The notes below the pieces were generated by a model that ran no database searches, was not told where the DNA came from, and saw nothing but the letters and a program-made list of their open reading frames with translations. The position numbers and the translations under genes are program-made. From an uncultured Bacilli bacterium (lineage in GTDB: Bacteria > Bacillota_I > Bacilli_A > RF39 > UBA660), in assembly GCA_947598395.1 (NCBI GenBank), contig CANQFG010000006.1, forward strand, positions 1 to 33,629: 33,629 nt of DNA, given 5' to 3'. Of the stretch, positions 1 through 20,794 are shown piece after piece (position 1 is the stretch's first letter; the number at the start of each line of letters is the position of its first letter).

Positions 1-1356
1 GATGTTGATACGGTAAGTGATGCTTTAAATGACTTATATAGAAATAAGAACACTAGTGATTCATGTAATAATGTAGCCGAACCTAATTTGGGAGATGGAT
101 CAAAATTAATACCTGTAATAATAAGTGATAATGGGAAAGTAACAAAAATAAATAAAAATGATCCGAATTGGTACGATTATTGTGAAAAGAAATGGGCGAA
201 TGCGGTAATCTTAAATGATGAGGTCGATGCACAAAAATATCAAGTAGGTTCTGAAATAGAAGAAGATGATATTGAAAGTTATTTTGTGTGGATACCAAAA
301 TATAAATATCGGTTATGGAATGTCAATGTAAGTGGTTTAAATTCAACTGGTTCATTAGAACAAAAGCATACTATCGATATTATCTTTGATACGATAAATA
401 CTGTGGATAAAGAAGGGGAATCGTGTAAAACCCCAATGAATGAAGACAATACTCAGGGATTATCGGGAGATAAAAAAGAGTGCAATAATGGCGAGTATAT
501 GACGCATCCGGCCTTTATAAGTTTTGGAGTCGATGGCTTTTGGGTGGGCAAATTTGAAACAGGACATAGAACAGCAACCTCAACGGCATTAGCTCAAGCT
601 AGCAAAGCTGACTCCAATTTAATAGTAGTAAAACCAAATGTTTACTCATGGCGGTATAATACGGTCAAAAATATATTTGAAGCAGCATATAACTACGAAC
701 GAGAATTAGATTCCCACATGATGAAAAATACGGAATGGGGAGCCGTAGCCTATCTATCTCATTCGATTTATGGAATCAATAATGAAGTAAATATCAATAA
801 TAATAGTTCGTATAAAACCGGATATAGTGCTATACCTGATAATTATCAAGGAACTCATCCCGGTACAGCTGGAGATGGCGATGGTTTTAATACAGCATGG
901 AATACAAAAAATGGTTATCGAGCAAGTACAACCGGAAATATAACAGGAGTATATGATATGAGTGGAGGAGCATGGGAGTATGTAGCCGCATATCGATCAG
1001 GGACTTATGGTGATAGTAACTTTAATAATACAACACTAGAGAATACATATAATAGTAAATATTACGATTCCTATAATGCAGTAAGTGCCGTAACAACCAA
1101 TCAATACATGATTCTTGGTGATGCCACCGGAGAGATGGGACCATTTAAATATTTTAAAGATAGTGATAATGCCGAGCAATACCACAATAGTTGGTACGGT
1201 GACGATTCGTACTTCGTCGAGTCCTCGGGCCCTTGGTTTCCTCGAGGCGGCGGTTCCACAGAAGGAGTCCTTGCAGGCCAATTCGCCTTCGGTAGAAACA
1301 CTGGTGGTGTGAACGCCTATATTGGTTCCCGTCTCGTCCTATCTCCCTTAAACTAG
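1..1356 (+). CDS. Surface-type protein with FGE/C-type-lectin-like domain (5' end cut by window)
   Basis: The frame is open from base 1, so the track start at TTG 88 is internal; the true start lies left of the window. The visible part aligns throughout with the paralog at 15620: both share a 'DALNDLY' segment, 'DPNWY.YCEKKWAN', 'YMTHPAFISFGVDGFWVGKFETG', 'DSHMMKNTEWGAVAYLSHS' and 'STTGNITGVYDMSGGAWE'. The last block is the core motif of formylglycine-generating-enzyme/sulfatase-modifying-factor folds, a C-type-lectin-like fold. The C-terminus ('WFPRGG ... AGQFAF ... GSRLVL') matches the layout of variable regions in DGR target proteins; the usual G-F-R is G-S-R here. GC content jumps in the last ~150 bp (84 of 150 bases in 1201-1350, against 13 of 60 in 1021-1080). 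I infer an exported binding or adhesion protein, not an enzyme, because the paralog has a signal peptide. The ligand is unknown. Confidence 0.75.
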   Translation, partial: DVDTVSDALNDLYRNKNTSDSCNNVAEPNLGDGSKLIPVIISDNGKVTKINKNDPNWYDYCEKKWANAVILNDEVDAQKYQVGSEIEEDDIESYFVWIPKYKYRLWNVNVSGLNSTGSLEQKHTIDIIFDTINTVDKEGESCKTPMNEDNTQGLSGDKKECNNGEYMTHPAFISFGVDGFWVGKFETGHRTATSTALAQASKADSNLIVVKPNVYSWRYNTVKNIFEAAYNYERELDSHMMKNTEWGAVAYLSHSIYGINNEVNINNNSSYKTGYSAIPDNYQGTHPGTAGDGDGFNTAWNTKNGYRASTTGNITGVYDMSGGAWEYVAAYRSGTYGDSNFNNTTLENTYNSKYYDSYNAVSAVTTNQYMILGDATGEMGPFKYFKDSDNAEQYHNSWYGDDSYFVESSGPWFPRGGGSTEGVLAGQFAFGRNTGGVNAYIGSRLVLSPLN

Positions 1357-1905: not shown

Positions 1906-2697
1906 ATGACGAAAGGAATCTTAGGACGTAAAATCGGGATGACCGAAAAATTTACGAAAGATGGAAAAGTAATTCCTGTTACAGTAGTTGAAGTTGAACC
2001 TAATGTTATTACCCAAATAAAGACTGTCGAAACTGATGGTTACAACGCTTTACAATTAGCTATTGTCGACAAGAAGGAAAAAAATACTAGCAAGGCCGAA
2101 ATTGGTCATGCTAAAAAAGCAGGTATTGCTCCTAAGCGCTTCTTAAAAGAAATTAGAGTTGATTCGGTTGATGGATACACTCTTGGAAGTACCATAGCAG
2201 CTGATACCTTCGAAGTTGGAGAGAAAGTTGATGTAACTGGAACTTCAAAAGGAAAAGGTTACCAAGGTGTTATTAAACGCCATGGCCAATCACGTGGACC
2301 AGAAACTCATGGTTCAAGATATCATAGAAGACCAGGTTCTTTAGGAACGATGCGACCAATGCGCGTCTTAAAGGGCAAGAAATTAGCTGGACATATGGGT
2401 AATGAAACCGTTACCATTCAAAATCTTGAGATTATTGAAGTATGTGTAGCCGATAATTATATTTTAGTAAGTGGTAATATTCCAGGACCAAAGAATTCAT
2501 TAGTTTTGATTAAATCAGCAGTAAAGGGTGGAAAAGTAAACCCTAAAGAAATCATTTATACTGCCGAAGAAACAGTTGTCGATGAGATCGAAGAACCAGT
2601 TGTAACGGAAACAACGGAGGAAGCTCCAGTTGAACCAGAAACCGACGAAGAAAAGACAGCTGAAGAAACTAAAGTCGAGGAAACTACTGAAGAATAA
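1906..2697 (+). CDS. rplC: 50S ribosomal protein L3 with acidic C-terminal tail
   Basis: The track start at 1891 is rejected: GGAGG at 1893-1897 is the ribosome binding site for ATG 1906, giving the usual L3 beginning '[14 protein letters not shown]'. The protein is 263 residues, against about 209 for typical L3. The core is normal, with '[19 protein letters not shown]' and '[10 protein letters not shown]' in the extension that reaches the peptidyl-transferase centre. From about residue 212 a tail of roughly 50 residues is very rich in Glu, Thr and Val, for example '[11 protein letters not shown]'. Most bacterial L3 lacks such a tail. It probably projects from the subunit, but its role is unknown. 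Confidence 0.96.
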
Positions 2698-2723
2698 AAT
2701 TCAGTTGAAAGGAGATTTATAAA

Positions 2724-3347
2724 ATGGCAAAAATTCAAATTGTTGACTTAAAAGGGTCAAAGATTAAAGATTTACAAATTAATGATGAAATATGGAATAT
2801 TGAAGGTAATAACCTTGTACTAAAAAAAGCAATTCGCTTACAACTTGATTCAATGCGTCAAGGAACGGCTGATACCAAGGGTCGTAGCGAAGTAAGTGGT
2901 GGTGGACGCAAGCCATACCGTCAAAAGGGAACTGGTAATGCGCGTCAAGGATCTATTAGAGCTCCACATTATCGTGGTGGTGGAATCGTCTTTGGACCAA
3001 CGCCTCGGAAATATGATTTTAAAGTCAATCGCAAGGAAGGACGTCTTGCTTTAAAGACGGCTTTATCCCAAAAATTTGCCGAAAAGAAATTGATGGTTGT
3101 CGATACTTTAGAATTGAGTTCAATGAAGACGAAAGATGCTCGTCAATTACTCGATACTTTAAAATTAACGGGCAAAGTATTATTCGTCAGTACCCATGAT
3201 GCTGAAAATTTATATTTAGCAACGCGTAATATGGGTAATATTGCCGTATTAATGGCAGATGAAATTAATGTTTATGATATCGTCAATGCAGATATGTTAG
3301 TCTGTGATGAAGATACGATGAACTATATTGAGGAGGTACTTAAATAA
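2724..3347 (+). CDS. rplD: 50S ribosomal protein L4
   Basis: At 207 residues it has the family length. The long tunnel loop is visible at about residues 62-85 as 'GGGRKPYRQKGTGNARQGS', followed by 'GGGIVFGPTPRKYDFKVN'. L4 helps form the exit-tunnel constriction and in several bacteria represses its own operon through the leader; the structured leader here would fit. Against the common 'KPWRQKGTGRARQGS', two loop residues differ (W to Y, R to N). AAGGAG precedes the ATG. The stop codon overlaps the rplW start by one base. Confidence 0.97.
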   Translation: MAKIQIVDLKGSKIKDLQINDEIWNIEGNNLVLKKAIRLQLDSMRQGTADTKGRSEVSGGGRKPYRQKGTGNARQGSIRAPHYRGGGIVFGPTPRKYDFKVNRKEGRLALKTALSQKFAEKKLMVVDTLELSSMKTKDARQLLDTLKLTGKVLFVSTHDAENLYLATRNMGNIAVLMADEINVYDIVNADMLVCDEDTMNYIEEVLK

Positions 3348-3616
3348 TGAAAGATATTATCATTGCTCCAGTTATAACTGAAAAGGCTAGTCGTTTAACT
3401 AGTGATAGTAATACTTACGTCTTTAAAGTTAATAAAGATGCCAATAAAATTGAAATCAAAAAAGCTATTGAAAGTACCTTTAATGTAAAAGTTGCTAGTG
3501 TCAATACATTGATCACGAAGCCAAAAGATAAAAGAGTTGGCAAATACACTGGTAAGACAAAAACTTATAAGAAAGCAATCGTTACTTTAGAGAACGGTTA
3601 TGCTATAGAAATATAG
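3347..3616 (+). CDS. rplW: 50S ribosomal protein L23
   Basis: It has 89 residues, slightly short of the usual 95-100. The start 'DIIIAPVITEKAS' and 'YVFKVNKDANKIEIKKAIE' are typical. L23 lies at the tunnel exit and is the docking site for trigger factor and SRP. Its ATG shares one base with the rplD stop, and its binding site GAGGAGG (3330-3336) lies inside rplD, so the two are probably translationally coupled. The basic loop 'KPKDKRVGKYTGKTKTYKKA' reaches toward 23S rRNA. Confidence 0.96.
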   Translation: MKDIIIAPVITEKASRLTSDSNTYVFKVNKDANKIEIKKAIESTFNVKVASVNTLITKPKDKRVGKYTGKTKTYKKAIVTLENGYAIEI

Positions 3617-3631
3617 TAGGAGGTTTTAGCT

Positions 3632-4459
3632 ATGGGTATTAGAAAATATAAGCCTACAACTAATGGACGTCGGGGTATGTCGACTTTGACCAATGAAGAA
3701 CTTACGACCAATAAGCCGGAAAAAAGCCTTTTGAGAAGTGCTTCTAAAACAGGTGGTCGCAATAATCAAGGTAAGATGACCGTTCGTCACATTGGTGGCG
3801 GAGCCAAAAGAAAATATCGTGTAATCGATTTCAAAAGAGATAAATTTGGGGTTACGGGTCGGGTAACGAGTATTGAATACGATCCAAACCGGAGTGCTAA
3901 TATTGCCTTAATCACTTATCGTGATGGTGAGAAACGCTATATCATTGCTCCAAAAGATTTGACAGTCGGAAGTATTATTGAAGCTGGCGTTAGCTGTGAT
4001 ATTAAAATCGGTAATGCAATGCAAATTCAAAATATTCCGGTTGGTACATTAATTCATAATTTGGAATTGCGTCCTGGTAATGGTGCTGAACTTGCTCGTT
4101 CAGCTGGACAAAGTGCTCAAATATTGGGTCGCGATGGCAAATATGTCATTGTCCGTTTACAAAGTGGTGAAACGCGAAAAATTCTTGGAACTTGTATGGC
4201 TACTGTTGGTGTCGTTGGCAATGAAGACTATGAACTTGTCAATTTAGGAAAAGCCGGACGGAAACGTCATATGGGTATTCGTCCTACTAACCGTGGTTCA
4301 GTTATGAACCCTAACGATCACCCTCATGGTGGTGGTGAAGGACGTGCACCAATTGGTAGAAAAGGGCCTGTTACTCCTTGGGGTAAACCTGCTCTTGGAT
4401 ATAAAACTCGTAAAGGAAAGAAAGCTTCTGACAAATTGATAGTCAGTAAGAAGAAATAG
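3632..4459 (+). CDS. rplB: 50S ribosomal protein L2
   Basis: It has 275 residues, the standard length. Recognisable are '[17 protein letters not shown]', '[15 protein letters not shown]' and the C-terminal '[19 protein letters not shown]', which holds the highly conserved histidine near the peptidyl-transferase centre. L2 is a primary 23S rRNA binder needed for subunit association. AGGAGG precedes the ATG by a normal distance. Nothing unusual is seen. Confidence 0.98.
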
Positions 4460-15518: not shown

Positions 15519-15537
15519 CAAAAAGAAAATTATTATG

Positions 15538-15559
15538 CACCGAAAACTCGGTGTTTTTT
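15538..15559 (+). terminator. Second, tandem terminator
   Basis: CACCGA (15538-15543) pairs with TCGGTG (15548-15553) around AAAC, then TTTTTT. With the previous hairpin it isolates the following surface gene from ribosomal-operon read-through. It ends just before the G9 promoter element. Confidence 0.85.
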
Positions 15560-15595
15560 CGTGCGACTGGGGGGGGGTGCAATACAATAGAGAAA
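15560..15595 (+). promoter_or_regulatory. Candidate phase-variable promoter with G9 tract (copy A)
   Basis: A run of nine G (15569-15577) sits upstream of a -10-like TACAAT (15583-15588). At G9 a weak -35-like GTGCGA (15561-15566) has a 16-bp spacer; one more G would make it 17. The predicted start is near 15595, about 20-25 nt before the gene. Because terminators end at 15559, this is the only room for a promoter. The core ACT-G9-TGCAATACAATA is repeated exactly at 18431-18454. Variation of the tract is inference by analogy to spacer poly-G promoters such as Neisseria porA. Confidence 0.6.
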
Positions 15596-15619
15596 ATGAA
15601 AAATAGGAGCAAAATGAAC

Positions 15620-17083
15620 ATGAAGAAAGTGTTTTTAATCTTATTAATCATCTTCTCAATAAGTTCAGTAAGTGTTATAGCTTTAAGTTTATGTAATGCG
15701 AAAGACATCGAATATAATGCCAATGATAATAGTTGGGATGTCGATACAGTTGAAGATGCTCTAAATGATTTATACCAAAGCAATGGAAGTAATATTAATG
15801 ATTCATGTAATAATGTAGCAAAGCCAAAAATAGATGCAGAAGGTAAATTAATTCCCGTTATTTTATCGGATGATGGAAAGGCGACAGTCGTAAGTGAAAG
15901 TGATCCAAATTGGTATAACTATTGTGAAAAGAAATGGGCGAATGTCATAATCTTAAATGATGGAGTAGATAAACAAAAATATCAAGTTGGATATCAATTA
16001 ACCGAAGAAGATGAAGATGAAATAGAAAGTTATTTTGTCTGGATACCCAAGTATAAATATAAATTATGGAATGTTTATTCAAATGGAAAAGATGCAATTC
16101 AGCAAGTTCACTCGATAGATATTGTTTTTGATACAACCAATACAACCGATATTCCTGGAGAATCATGTGTGACTCCTATGGAAAGTGGAAAAATTGGAGA
16201 TTGTAATAATGAGGAATATATGACGCATCCGGCTTTTATATCATTTGGAGTCGATGGTTTCTGGGTTGGCAAATTTGAGACAGGGTATGATGGTACGACA
16301 AATAATTATAATGTTAAAGATGCCAGTAAGGTCATCATTAAGCCAAATGTCTTGTCTTGGCGCAATATAAATGTTAAAAACATGTTTGAAACAGCCTATG
16401 AATATGAACGAGATTTAGATTCGCATATGATGAAGAATACGGAATGGGGAGCAGTTGCCTATTTATCGCATTCAAAGTATGGAATAGATAGAGAAATAAA
16501 TCTTAACAATAATAATTTGTATAAAACAGGTTATTCTTCATCACCAACAGTGAATCAAAAATGGTATCAAGGTACATCAGGTGATGGTGGAATATATAAT
16601 CAACTGTGGAATACGGATGTTGGATATTTAGCTAGTACGACGGGAAATATCACGGGTGTCTATGATATGTCTGGTGGAGCATGGGAAAACATGGCAAGCT
16701 ATCGTTCAGGGACTTATTTAAATAGTGGTTTTAACAGTGAGACTTTTGAAAATGCCTATGATGATGCTTATTATGACTTATATAATTCTAATAGTACCCT
16801 TAATTCTTTTCAAAACATGATATTAGGTGATGCAACGGGGGAAATGGGACCTTTTAATTTATATGTCGTTGGAACTAGTGGTAATGATTATCATAATAGT
16901 TGGTATGGTGATCCTGCAAATTTTATTAATTCGCCTGGTTCATGGTTTGAACGAGGTGGCGATTGTACTGACGGTGTATTAACTGGCCAATTTCGCTTTC
17001 ATGCTGTAAATGGCGGGGCTTCAAATCGTATGGGCTTCCGTCTTGTCCTTGTCGGAGAAAATAAGCATCCAACTAGTCCGTAA
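15620..17083 (+). CDS. Secreted FGE/C-type-lectin-like surface protein, full-length paralog
   Basis: The track start at GTG 15551 would run through the terminator and the G tract. AGGAG (15605-15609) favours ATG 15620 (10 nt) or 15614 (4 nt). The ~487-residue protein begins 'MKKVFLILLIIFSISS', a signal peptide or N-terminal anchor; no canonical lipobox is present ('LSLC'). A 'DTVEDALNDLY' segment follows, then a unique middle part and an FGE-like fold with 'STTGNITGVYDMSGGAWE'. It ends 'WFERGGDCTDGVLTGQFRF ... GFRLVL', the arrangement of DGR variable regions. Differences from the paralog at 1-1356 cluster in this last part. It is probably a surface binding protein; the ligand is unknown. Confidence 0.75.
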   Translation: MKKVFLILLIIFSISSVSVIALSLCNAKDIEYNANDNSWDVDTVEDALNDLYQSNGSNINDSCNNVAKPKIDAEGKLIPVILSDDGKATVVSESDPNWYNYCEKKWANVIILNDGVDKQKYQVGYQLTEEDEDEIESYFVWIPKYKYKLWNVYSNGKDAIQQVHSIDIVFDTTNTTDIPGESCVTPMESGKIGDCNNEEYMTHPAFISFGVDGFWVGKFETGYDGTTNNYNVKDASKVIIKPNVLSWRNINVKNMFETAYEYERDLDSHMMKNTEWGAVAYLSHSKYGIDREINLNNNNLYKTGYSSSPTVNQKWYQGTSGDGGIYNQLWNTDVGYLASTTGNITGVYDMSGGAWENMASYRSGTYLNSGFNSETFENAYDDAYYDLYNSNSTLNSFQNMILGDATGEMGPFNLYVVGTSGNDYHNSWYGDPANFINSPGSWFERGGDCTDGVLTGQFRFHAVNGGASNRMGFRLVLVGENKHPTSP

Positions 17084-17108: not shown

Positions 17109-17157
17109 ATTTCGCAAAAAGCAAAAAAATTGACTTTTGCGAAATAGATAGTATAAT
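17109..17157 (+). promoter_or_regulatory. Promoter and overlapping 11-bp inverted repeat before the ATPase gene
   Basis: TTGACT (17130-17135), a 16-bp spacer and TATAAT (17152-17157) form a good promoter. A perfect inverted repeat, ATTTCGCAAAA (17109-17119) and TTTTGCGAAAT (17135-17145), flanks the -35; its right arm fills most of the spacer. This is a plausible operator for a dimeric repressor. No regulator gene is adjacent, so the binding protein is unknown. Confidence 0.65.
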
Positions 17158-17182
17158 CTTAATTGAGGAGGCTATCTATATT

Positions 17183-18416: not shown

Positions 18417-18426
18417 TTTGAAAAAA

Positions 18427-18480
18427 TGCAACTGGGGGGGGGTGCAATACAATAAGAATAATGGAAAATAGTGACAAAAA
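18427..18480 (+). repeat. Second G9 promoter-like element (copy B)
   Basis: It aligns without gaps to 15562-15615. The 24-bp core (18431-18454) is identical, including exactly nine G and TACAAT; overall 44 of 53 compared bases match. The base matching ATG 15596 is also an ATG (18461), but the aligned AGGAG is AGTGA and the small frame stops after about 16 codons. It is either an extra upstream promoter for the next gene or the remnant of a duplicated surface-gene 5' end. Confidence 0.8.
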
Positions 18481-18505
18481 CAAACAACATATGACAATAT
18501 ATGTA

Positions 18506-18534
18506 TTGTAAATAAAAATTAATTAAATTATAAT
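18506..18534 (+). promoter_or_regulatory. Promoter of the beta-helix surface gene
   Basis: TTGTAA (18506-18511), a 17-bp spacer and TATAAT (18529-18534). This is a conventional promoter, about 60 bases before the gene, independent of the G9 element upstream. Confidence 0.65.
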
Positions 18535-18598
18535 AATAAATAGAATAATATGTTCTAAACTTTCGGGTAAGATAAATAATAAAGGGAGCATTTTTTAA

Positions 18599-20794
18599 AT
18601 GAAAAGAAAAGGAATAATCATAGCTTTAACATTGATGAGTATTGGCTTTGCCTTAGTAACAGCAACTCTAACAATTAATGGAGTAATAAATCTTGGATTT
18701 GATGCCGAAGACTTTGATGTCTATTTTTCGGATGCTTATTTAAATGAAGAGCAACATAAAGAATTTATAACTCAAGATGGCAAAAATATAACTTTTCAAA
18801 CAACTCTAAAAAGTATAAATGAACGTAGTATCTTAAAATATGAAGTTATGAATAATAGCAAACAATATGATGCCGAAGTAACAATAAGCTGTACTCCTGA
18901 AAATGATGAATTGTTAACTATAACAAATAATATAGATAGTACAACTATTACAGCTCAAAGTAAAAAAGAAGGAAACTTAACGATAACTTTAAAGAAAAGT
19001 GTTGTCGAGGATATCAGTAAAGATATAAATTGTCAATTAACTATCAATGCCATTGAGAGGACAAGTAAAGAAGAACAACAAGAGGCGAGTACATATAGTT
19101 TTGGTGGTATTTTAATGAATAGTGATGAAACGCCAATTGCCAATAGTAAGGTAATTGTCTATTCCAAAGTACCTCATGAAGTAACAACTGATGAAAATGG
19201 ATACTTATATGTCGAAGGATTAGATCGGGGAAGTCATGAGATATATTATGTAAATGGCGAGGTAGATGCTAGTGATAAAGAAGCCGTAAAAGAAGCAGCC
19301 TTAGCTAGCGGAAATATAACGACAAGTTATACTTCTACTGAAATAAAATTAAATAATGGATATGAGATAAAAGATGTAAGTGTTGGAAAAACCAGTGAAC
19401 TAATAATCGCTAGTTTAGAAACTGATGTGATAGATAAAAAGATAGTAAATGGTAATACTGTAACATTTCCAATAAGTGGGGAATATAGCAATATCTTATG
19501 TGAGAGTGAAGAATTGCCAATCGAAGTAAATGAAGAACAAGTAACGATAGATAATGTAAATAAAAGTACCAAATGTTACTTAAGTAATGATATCTATCAA
19601 ACAGCTAATAAATTAAAAGATGAATATGAACGTGGGTTTATAAAAGTACTTAAAAATATCAGTGGAACAAACGCTTTGCGTTTTCATAAAGAGACGACGA
19701 TGGATATCGATGGTCATGAAGTAAAAATTAATTATGCAGTAGACGCAGGCATTGCTTCATATGCCAATTTAACACTTAAGGATAGCAGAGGAACAGGTAA
19801 AATTATAAATGAAACGATGGATGCCATAGCTATAGGTTCTCCTAACATAACGATAAATACCAGTGTCAATATTGAAGCGGAAAGAAGTGCCTTAAGAATT
19901 TATACTGGTGGTATTAATAGTGTCATCAATGTCAATGGCGGTAATTTAAAGTGTACTAATGTAAAAAATGGAGAAGAAGGGTGTGTTTTTGCATCTAAAA
20001 CTAATGAAGAAATAATTTTAAATAATGTCTCCATTGATGCTCAAAATTATTTTGGCTCTGCGAATGGCGGTGGAAAAATAACTTTAAATTCGGGTACAAT
20101 CAAGTGTAATTATGGCATTTCCGTTGAAAAAAATAGTGTATTCAACATGAATGGGGGCAAAATCGAAGCTCAAGAAACGGCAATAAAAACATATGGAACG
20201 ACAACGATAACAAATGGAGAACTTTCGTCAATAAATAATTATACAATTGAGAATATTGGTACATTAAATCTAAATGGTCAAAATGCCACTTTTAGTGAAA
20301 ATGGTGAATATCAAAATGGCATTTATTTATATGGTGAAGGACCAAATCATGCAACTATTCATAGCCATGTTGGTAACGTGATAATTAATGGTGGAACGAT
20401 TATCCATGGCGATTCAAAAGCTTCAGAAGTTACTTGGCGACAACATTCTTTACGCTTAGATAAAGGTTCAGCAACTATCAATGGCGGATATTTTGAAAGT
20501 AAAGCTAAACTTGTAGAGGATGTAAAAAGTGGTAGTATCTATTTAAATGAACAAGTTGGTACGGTCAATATTAAAAATGTTGAAGTTAAGAATAAATTAT
20601 TTATCAATCATAATTCCGCAAATCAAACGGGTCCAATCGTAAATATATGTAGTGGTAATATTGACATTATTAGAATAACGCAGTATGCAAAGCTTATTTA
20701 TCGGCAAAATGATCTACAGCTTGGGCAAATAATATCTCATGATGGCACTGATTATCATAATGTTCTTATTTCAGATGACTTAACTTGTGAATAA
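18599..20794 (+). CDS. Large secreted beta-helix surface protein
   Basis: The 731-residue protein begins 'MKRKGIIIALTLMSIGFALV', an export signal, followed by a beta-rich N-terminal part. At about residues 164-222 a carboxypeptidase-regulatory-like or SpaA-like module is visible ('GGILMNSDETPIANSKVIVY', 'TTDENGYLYVEGLDRGSHEI'). From about residue 420 to 700, irregular repeats such as 'INVNGGNLKC', 'ITLNSGTIKC' and 'FNMNGGKIEA' indicate a right-handed parallel beta-helix of the pectate-lyase-like or adhesin class. No LPXTG sorting signal or C-terminal membrane helix is visible, so it may stay attached through its N-terminus or be released. GGGAG lies 10 nt before the ATG. Substrate and catalytic activity are unknown. 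Confidence 0.7.
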   Translation: MKRKGIIIALTLMSIGFALVTATLTINGVINLGFDAEDFDVYFSDAYLNEEQHKEFITQDGKNITFQTTLKSINERSILKYEVMNNSKQYDAEVTISCTPENDELLTITNNIDSTTITAQSKKEGNLTITLKKSVVEDISKDINCQLTINAIERTSKEEQQEASTYSFGGILMNSDETPIANSKVIVYSKVPHEVTTDENGYLYVEGLDRGSHEIYYVNGEVDASDKEAVKEAALASGNITTSYTSTEIKLNNGYEIKDVSVGKTSELIIASLETDVIDKKIVNGNTVTFPISGEYSNILCESEELPIEVNEEQVTIDNVNKSTKCYLSNDIYQTANKLKDEYERGFIKVLKNISGTNALRFHKETTMDIDGHEVKINYAVDAGIASYANLTLKDSRGTGKIINETMDAIAIGSPNITINTSVNIEAERSALRIYTGGINSVINVNGGNLKCTNVKNGEEGCVFASKTNEEIILNNVSIDAQNYFGSANGGGKITLNSGTIKCNYGISVEKNSVFNMNGGKIEAQETAIKTYGTTTITNGELSSINNYTIENIGTLNLNGQNATFSENGEYQNGIYLYGEGPNHATIHSHVGNVIINGGTIIHGDSKASEVTWRQHSLRLDKGSATINGGYFESKAKLVEDVKSGSIYLNEQVGTVNIKNVEVKNKLFINHNSANQTGPIVNICSGNIDIIRITQYAKLIYRQNDLQLGQIISHDGTDYHNVLISDDLTCE

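Follow-up and report, generated by a model that had tools for sequence, protein, structure and literature searches.

Putative surface-protein genes in a small bacterial genome are preceded by a repeated promoter-like element marked by a run of G residues. The element keeps a fixed distance of 5 nt between the tract and the -10 box, shows a spread of tract lengths, and is found at one locus in two lengths; the same architecture, with consensus boxes, is featured by relatives. In all likelihood the tracts support slippage-driven phase variation of the promoters, with slippage in living cells, the precise -35 and the consequences for transcription being inferences. The stretch of DNA analyzed (33,629 nt, hereafter the window) corresponds to contig C6 of a 1.30 Mb genome assembled in 84 contigs. 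Gene order, and the genome sizes of relatives, suggest a small-genome relative of the Bacilli.

Tracts of nine G are located in the window at 15569–15577 and 18434–18442. Further runs of 7 or more G are missing, and none of 100 shuffled sequences reached this count. The first tract lies 3' of rplQ, just downstream of two T-run hairpins, the second of which ends at about 15559 (fold z = -3.8). The initial annotation had set two terminators before the element, the second ending at this position. Both are borne out by folding, and the second was recovered also by a terminator scan; it corresponds to the intrinsic terminator of the upstream ribosomal-protein operon (15537–15559, plus strand), and adjoins the element. 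Terminators are followed by GTGCGACT, nine G, TGCAATACAATA, a short leader containing AGGAG, and a gene encoding a 489-aa protein. All modules are on the plus strand. The probable -35, GTGCGA (15561–15566), was assigned from the sequence, the conservation of the GCAACT columns, and the 16-bp spacer obtained with G9. The tract within the spacer is followed by the conserved block TGCAATACAATA (15578–15589), which includes the -10 box TACAAT (15583–15588), and by the ribosome binding site AGGAG (15605–15609), recognized by sequence and kept in most copies of the element. No sequence resembling a -10 other than TACAAT (or TACATT) is found from the terminator to the ribosome binding site, and this box lies 5 nt 3' of the tract; box and ribosome binding site were found where they had been annotated, at 15583 and 15605. 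GTGCGA and TACAAT are spaced 15 bp with G8, 16 bp with G9 and 17 bp with G10, and the location of the nine G in a spacer of 16 bp, or 17 bp with ten G, agrees with the coordinates in the annotation.

The second element (18426–18454) is the same block, connected to its gene by a longer leader. It includes, on the plus strand, a probable -35, ATGCAA (18426–18431, assigned from sequence and column conservation), the G9 tract (18434–18442), and TGCAATACAATA (18443–18454) with the -10 box TACAAT at 18448–18453. A homopolymer separating the -35 from the -10 is a defining trait of phase-variable promoters of the porA/fetA/vlp type, and both elements have it (G9 between GTGCGA or ATGCAA and TACAAT, 16 bp). 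A consensus sigma-70 scan called no promoter at the first element because the -35 is weak, and in this species the -35 is inferred from conservation and spacing, without a match to the consensus. The region at 18455–18598 is a leader of about 140 nt (gtgacaaaaataaacaacatatgacaatatatgtattg...) preceding the start codon, conserved in a subset of elements and with no match in Rfam. No Rfam match was found in a scan of the window. The DUF4143 ATPase gene residing between both elements has a promoter-like sequence of its own, TTGACT...TATAAT (17113–17160), overlapped by an inverted repeat (TTTCGCAAAA...TTTTGCGAAA).

Elements similar to those in the window mark the whole genome, where 57 assembled copies of GCAACT-Gn-TGC[A/G]ATACA[A/T]T[A/G] were identified, corresponding to 56 loci, as contigs C18 and C32 are one locus assembled twice. 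The tract measures nine G in 33 copies, eight in 22, seven in one and ten in one; one further copy carries G5. Tracts, tabulated from searches and fetched stretches, are pure in all 57 copies. Residues G, C, A and T at positions -6, -5, -3 and -1 relative to the tract are invariant, as are most bases up to +11. TGCAA flanks the tract on both sides in most copies. The consensus of the probable -35 across the 57 copies is (A/C)TGCAA, with spacers of 15, 16 and 17 bp for G8, G9 and G10, respectively. Sequences located further 5' differ between sites, and often correspond to the terminator of the preceding gene. The genome holds 38 tracts of at least 9 G (39 overlapping matches, one G10 being counted twice), 34 of which reside in the element, the tract being shorter in 23 copies. 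The run at 18434 had been taken as the only other one of its kind, which is correct for the window and not for the genome. Similarly, G9 is exceptional by chance, as had been held, since less than one such run is expected per genome (0.26 for independent bases, 0.66 in a first-order Markov model), but not within this genome, where the element is one of 57 copies. The element was found in none of the 39 relatives searched, and therefore looks specific to this species, as far as sequence comparisons tell. Exact matches in genomes of all other species, in a search which excluded records of this genome, are scattered among unrelated phyla, one per contig, and were read as chance.

Almost always, the elements precede genes of one modular set of putatively secreted proteins. 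In the window, the first drives a gene at 15614–17083 (plus strand, alternative start at 15620) for a putative secreted or surface protein of 489 aa, which matches no Pfam or NCBIfam family, and has a C-terminal domain homologous to retroelement target proteins. The second drives a putative surface protein gene for 731 aa (18599–20794, plus strand), with a leader of about 145 nt. A third member of the family (1–1356, plus strand) has its 5' end beyond the window; here the contig start and contig C78, which includes a G9 element, have exactly 77 nt in common. Tract-driven genes are mosaics, in that their N-termini fall into two types, combined in varied ways with C-termini of at least two types. 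One type of C-terminal domain features a variable stretch and ends with GFR(L/I)xLAP. Hydrophobic N-terminal segments were noticed by inspection, and on this ground the products are putatively secreted or surface-exposed. Structure prediction of the C-terminal domain from the two window sequences alone gave no usable model (mean pLDDT 27). A profile search of solved structures gave a weak match (E 0.58) to 5vf4, which we take to be a Thermus retroelement variable protein, and which is a lead only.

One locus is found in two lengths. Contigs C18 (G8) and C32 (G9) share 69 nt 5' and 69 nt 3' of the tract, and are otherwise identical over the overlap. C18 terminates 69 nt 3' of the G8 tract, C32 69 nt 5' of the G9 tract, and the two ends overlap by exactly 77 nt. 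Exactly 77 nt are shared with another sequence at 7 of the 74 contig ends examined, which indicates that the assembler used k=77. In a graph of this type (69+8=77), C18 and C32 are the two branches of the bubble expected of a mixture of G8 and G9. Contigs C28, C31 and C35 break off exactly eight G into a tract, the point at which a fork of this kind is expected. Assemblers usually discard rare variants. The bubble could in principle reflect slippage during PCR or sequencing. Both mutS and mutL are present in this genome, as in nearly all relatives; instability is therefore not raised by their loss, and the idea that long tracts stem from defective mismatch repair was rejected.

The four G9 tracts not included in the element family all reside in coding sequences. 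Two interrupt acyltransferase-like genes, the frame being broken exactly at the tract (L016:1164 and L016:10471, contig C7); one is found in an acyltransferase-like gene which stays open (L010:2557, contig C1), and one near the N-terminus of a putative surface gene. The term acyltransferase-like rests on inspection of the translation. By analogy, the coexistence of frame-broken and open G9 genes is the usual look of classical contingency loci. In the relative G022 (L091, L220-L232), promoter tracts coexist with tracts located a few codons past the start (ATGATGAAAAAAAGAGTCT-G9-TCAG), and both types precede similar secreted proteins.

Of 40 genomes searched, 19 carry tracts of at least 9 G, and most of these belong to the same family. 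The comparison is between related species, not among strains of one species. Flanks of the tracts vary with the lineage, and many tracts are framed by consensus boxes. Promoters conform to TTGACA-N7-G9..14-TATCCT in G020, TTGACA-N6-G11..13-TAAAAT in G018, TTGACT-N1-G9-N7-TATAAT in G017, and TTGACA-N-G9..11-TATAAT in both G112 and G340. In the congener G005, TTGCAA lies 3 nt 5' of the tract. One G020 promoter is found with G9, 10, 11, 13 and 14, corresponding to spacers of 16–21. Genes located behind the tracts of relatives encode camelysin/TasA-like and DUF285 proteins and, by weak matches, FGE-like and DUF6273-like domains. In G003, tracts of G12 and G22 at contig ends were set aside as likely sequencing artefacts.

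A TTGACA-like box (at least 5 of 6 residues) is located 0–12 nt upstream of 20 of 50 unselected tracts from 13 genomes of the family, and is exact in 18. At random positions, used as control, the figures are 8% and 0.5% (p = 4.5e-10); boxes are about 5 times, and exact ones about 70 times, commoner at the tracts. The p value overstates independence, since several tracts per genome are copies of one promoter. TTGAC-N-G9-N-TAAAAT was found in 10 of 117 genomes of the family, and TTGACA-N-G9-N-TA[A/T]AAT in 16 of 296 genomes of the class, in at least 7 families; the reversed patterns, searched as controls, gave no match in either set. The spacer measures 16–20 in 47 of 55 matches, and the tract lies at most 2 nt from the -10 in 37 of 55. 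Clustering of the spacers is partly imposed by the search pattern, as allowed lengths centre on 19.

The near-invariant flanks, with TGCAA on both sides of the tract in most copies, and the non-canonical -35 suit also a different function, in which tract and TGCAA form the binding site of a regulator of the whole surface-gene set, and length is irrelevant. However, relatives retain the tract within very different flanks and consensus -35/-10 boxes, so that the common feature is a G-run plus a promoter, not one site, and lengths vary from 5 to 10 here and from 9 to 14 in relatives; a regulator site seems unlikely. Still less favored is the view of a dispersed repeat, propagated as whole gene cassettes through duplication and gene conversion, in which the G run is carried along passively and drifts. 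Downstream genes are indeed paralogues found at many scattered sites, with near-identical leaders, but the tract is uninterrupted in every copy although adjacent bases vary, and the design recurs in other families with unrelated flanks and unrelated proteins. There is very little room for the hypothesis that G runs are artefacts of sequencing or assembly, as poly-G calls in two-colour chemistry. The G003 tracts at contig ends have this appearance, but most tracts are internal to contigs, are bordered by conserved flanks on both sides in 57 places, and recur across many independent assemblies.

Phase variation at the promoter, proposed in the initial annotation, is backed by a repeated element with lengths of 5–10 in one genome, by one locus in two lengths, by the consensus -35 and -10 boxes which surround G9–G14 in relatives, and by frame-interrupting tracts in the same genome. 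A poly-G spacer on which expression of surface proteins depends through its length is equally supported, though the transcription start, switching among strains and the dose response have not been shown. The G tract would serve as the spacer of a sigma-70-type promoter, and replication slippage, by adding or removing G residues, would shift distance and angle between -35 and -10. The changed spacer would alter the expression of the surface-protein gene downstream. Because a modular family of putatively secreted proteins is placed under the 57 promoter copies, cells of one population would mix many on, low and off combinations.

One tract-driven gene is associated with a diversity-generating retroelement, located at 3–4208 of contig C11 (L242, minus strand; template repeat at 1986–2143). 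The locus includes a G9 element, the target gene, which has a C-terminal domain of the type ending with GFR(L/I)xLAP, then the template repeat, a MutS-N-like gene, Avd (NF033474, 1e-22, above the cut-off) and a reverse transcriptase (PF00078, 1.7e-16), whose gene continues past the contig end. Of the 34 A of the template, 9 are mismatched in the gene, against none of 44 C, 40 G and 40 T (0 of 124 non-A positions). Judged by its sequence, the locus is a diversity-generating retroelement, as reverse transcriptase, Avd and adenine-only mismatches are all found. Diverged, template-like 3' ends are found in roughly half of the remaining genes behind tracts. The surface antigen had been described as potentially hypervariable, which gains support from a sister gene, itself a retroelement target. 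The window gene at 15614–17083 matches the C11 template only over 50 nt (68%), with mismatches at all bases; the match being weak, this gene counts as related to the targets, without being demonstrated as one. In G009, which belongs to another genus, a G10 tract is found 5' of a gene in which 8 of 8 mismatches to a nearby repeat fall on adenines of the repeat. The locus (G009:C8, L239, 413–4712) is retroelement-like, in the order target, MutS-N-like, Avd-like, reverse transcriptase-like, template; reverse transcriptase and Avd were assigned from order and size only. A third retroelement-like locus of the family is at 2394–4107 of G017:C114 (L240), where all but one of 10 mismatches fall on adenines of the template, and the promoter of its target falls outside the contig. 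Diversity may be organized in two layers, in which about 57 poly-G promoters would pick the surface proteins to be expressed, and the retroelement would rewrite the variable stretch that closes at least one of these proteins; arguments for and against this organization are, to us, evenly balanced. Judging by titles and abstracts, no paper among those examined on retroelements together with phase variation describes such a pairing, and a literature search on the lineage of the window gave nothing relevant.

Control of promoters by tract length is not new, having precedents in porA, fetA and vlp. In Neisseria, taking 11G as the reference, surface PorA drops 2.2-fold when the tract is 10G and 13-fold when it is 9G (PMC3639595), and the length of a poly-C tract between -35 and -10 sets the expression of fetA (PMC5320596). 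The homopolymer in the spacer, poly-G in porA and poly-C in fetA, and surface-protein expression set by its length are features in common; in contrast, one or few genes per genome are concerned in Neisseria, about 57 promoter copies here, in a lineage of Gram-positive type and with switching inferred. In Mycoplasma hyorhinis, poly-A in the promoter of every vlp family member switches each gene on or off (PMC10502178). A promoter homopolymer across a surface-protein family is found in both systems, but vlp is a small family with poly-A, whereas poly-G precedes here numerous genes, scattered over the genome, in which N- and C-terminal modules are variously combined. In the gut commensal Bifidobacterium breve, slippage at G runs of pilus genes was measured by error-corrected sequencing (PMC9187656); slippage is inferred here, and the B. 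breve switch is intragenic, whereas tracts are here mainly in promoters, with four in coding sequences. The C11 locus resembles known diversity-generating retroelements in reverse transcriptase, Avd, template repeat and adenine-only mismatches, but differs because its target is driven by a poly-G promoter, and because template-like 3' ends recur in roughly half of the remaining tract genes. Copy number, taxonomic setting and pairing with a retroelement appear new, as far as the literature examined shows.

If the interpretation is correct, this small genome, outside the classical pathogens, would host a very large set of contingency loci of the promoter type, tied to a retroelement which hypermutates an expressed protein. 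This would explain how a variable surface, faced with phages or host immunity, could be kept with few regulators. With a similar pairing seen in another genus, and promoters of this kind spread over several families of the class, the strategy would be a common one among these small-genome, mostly uncultured bacteria.
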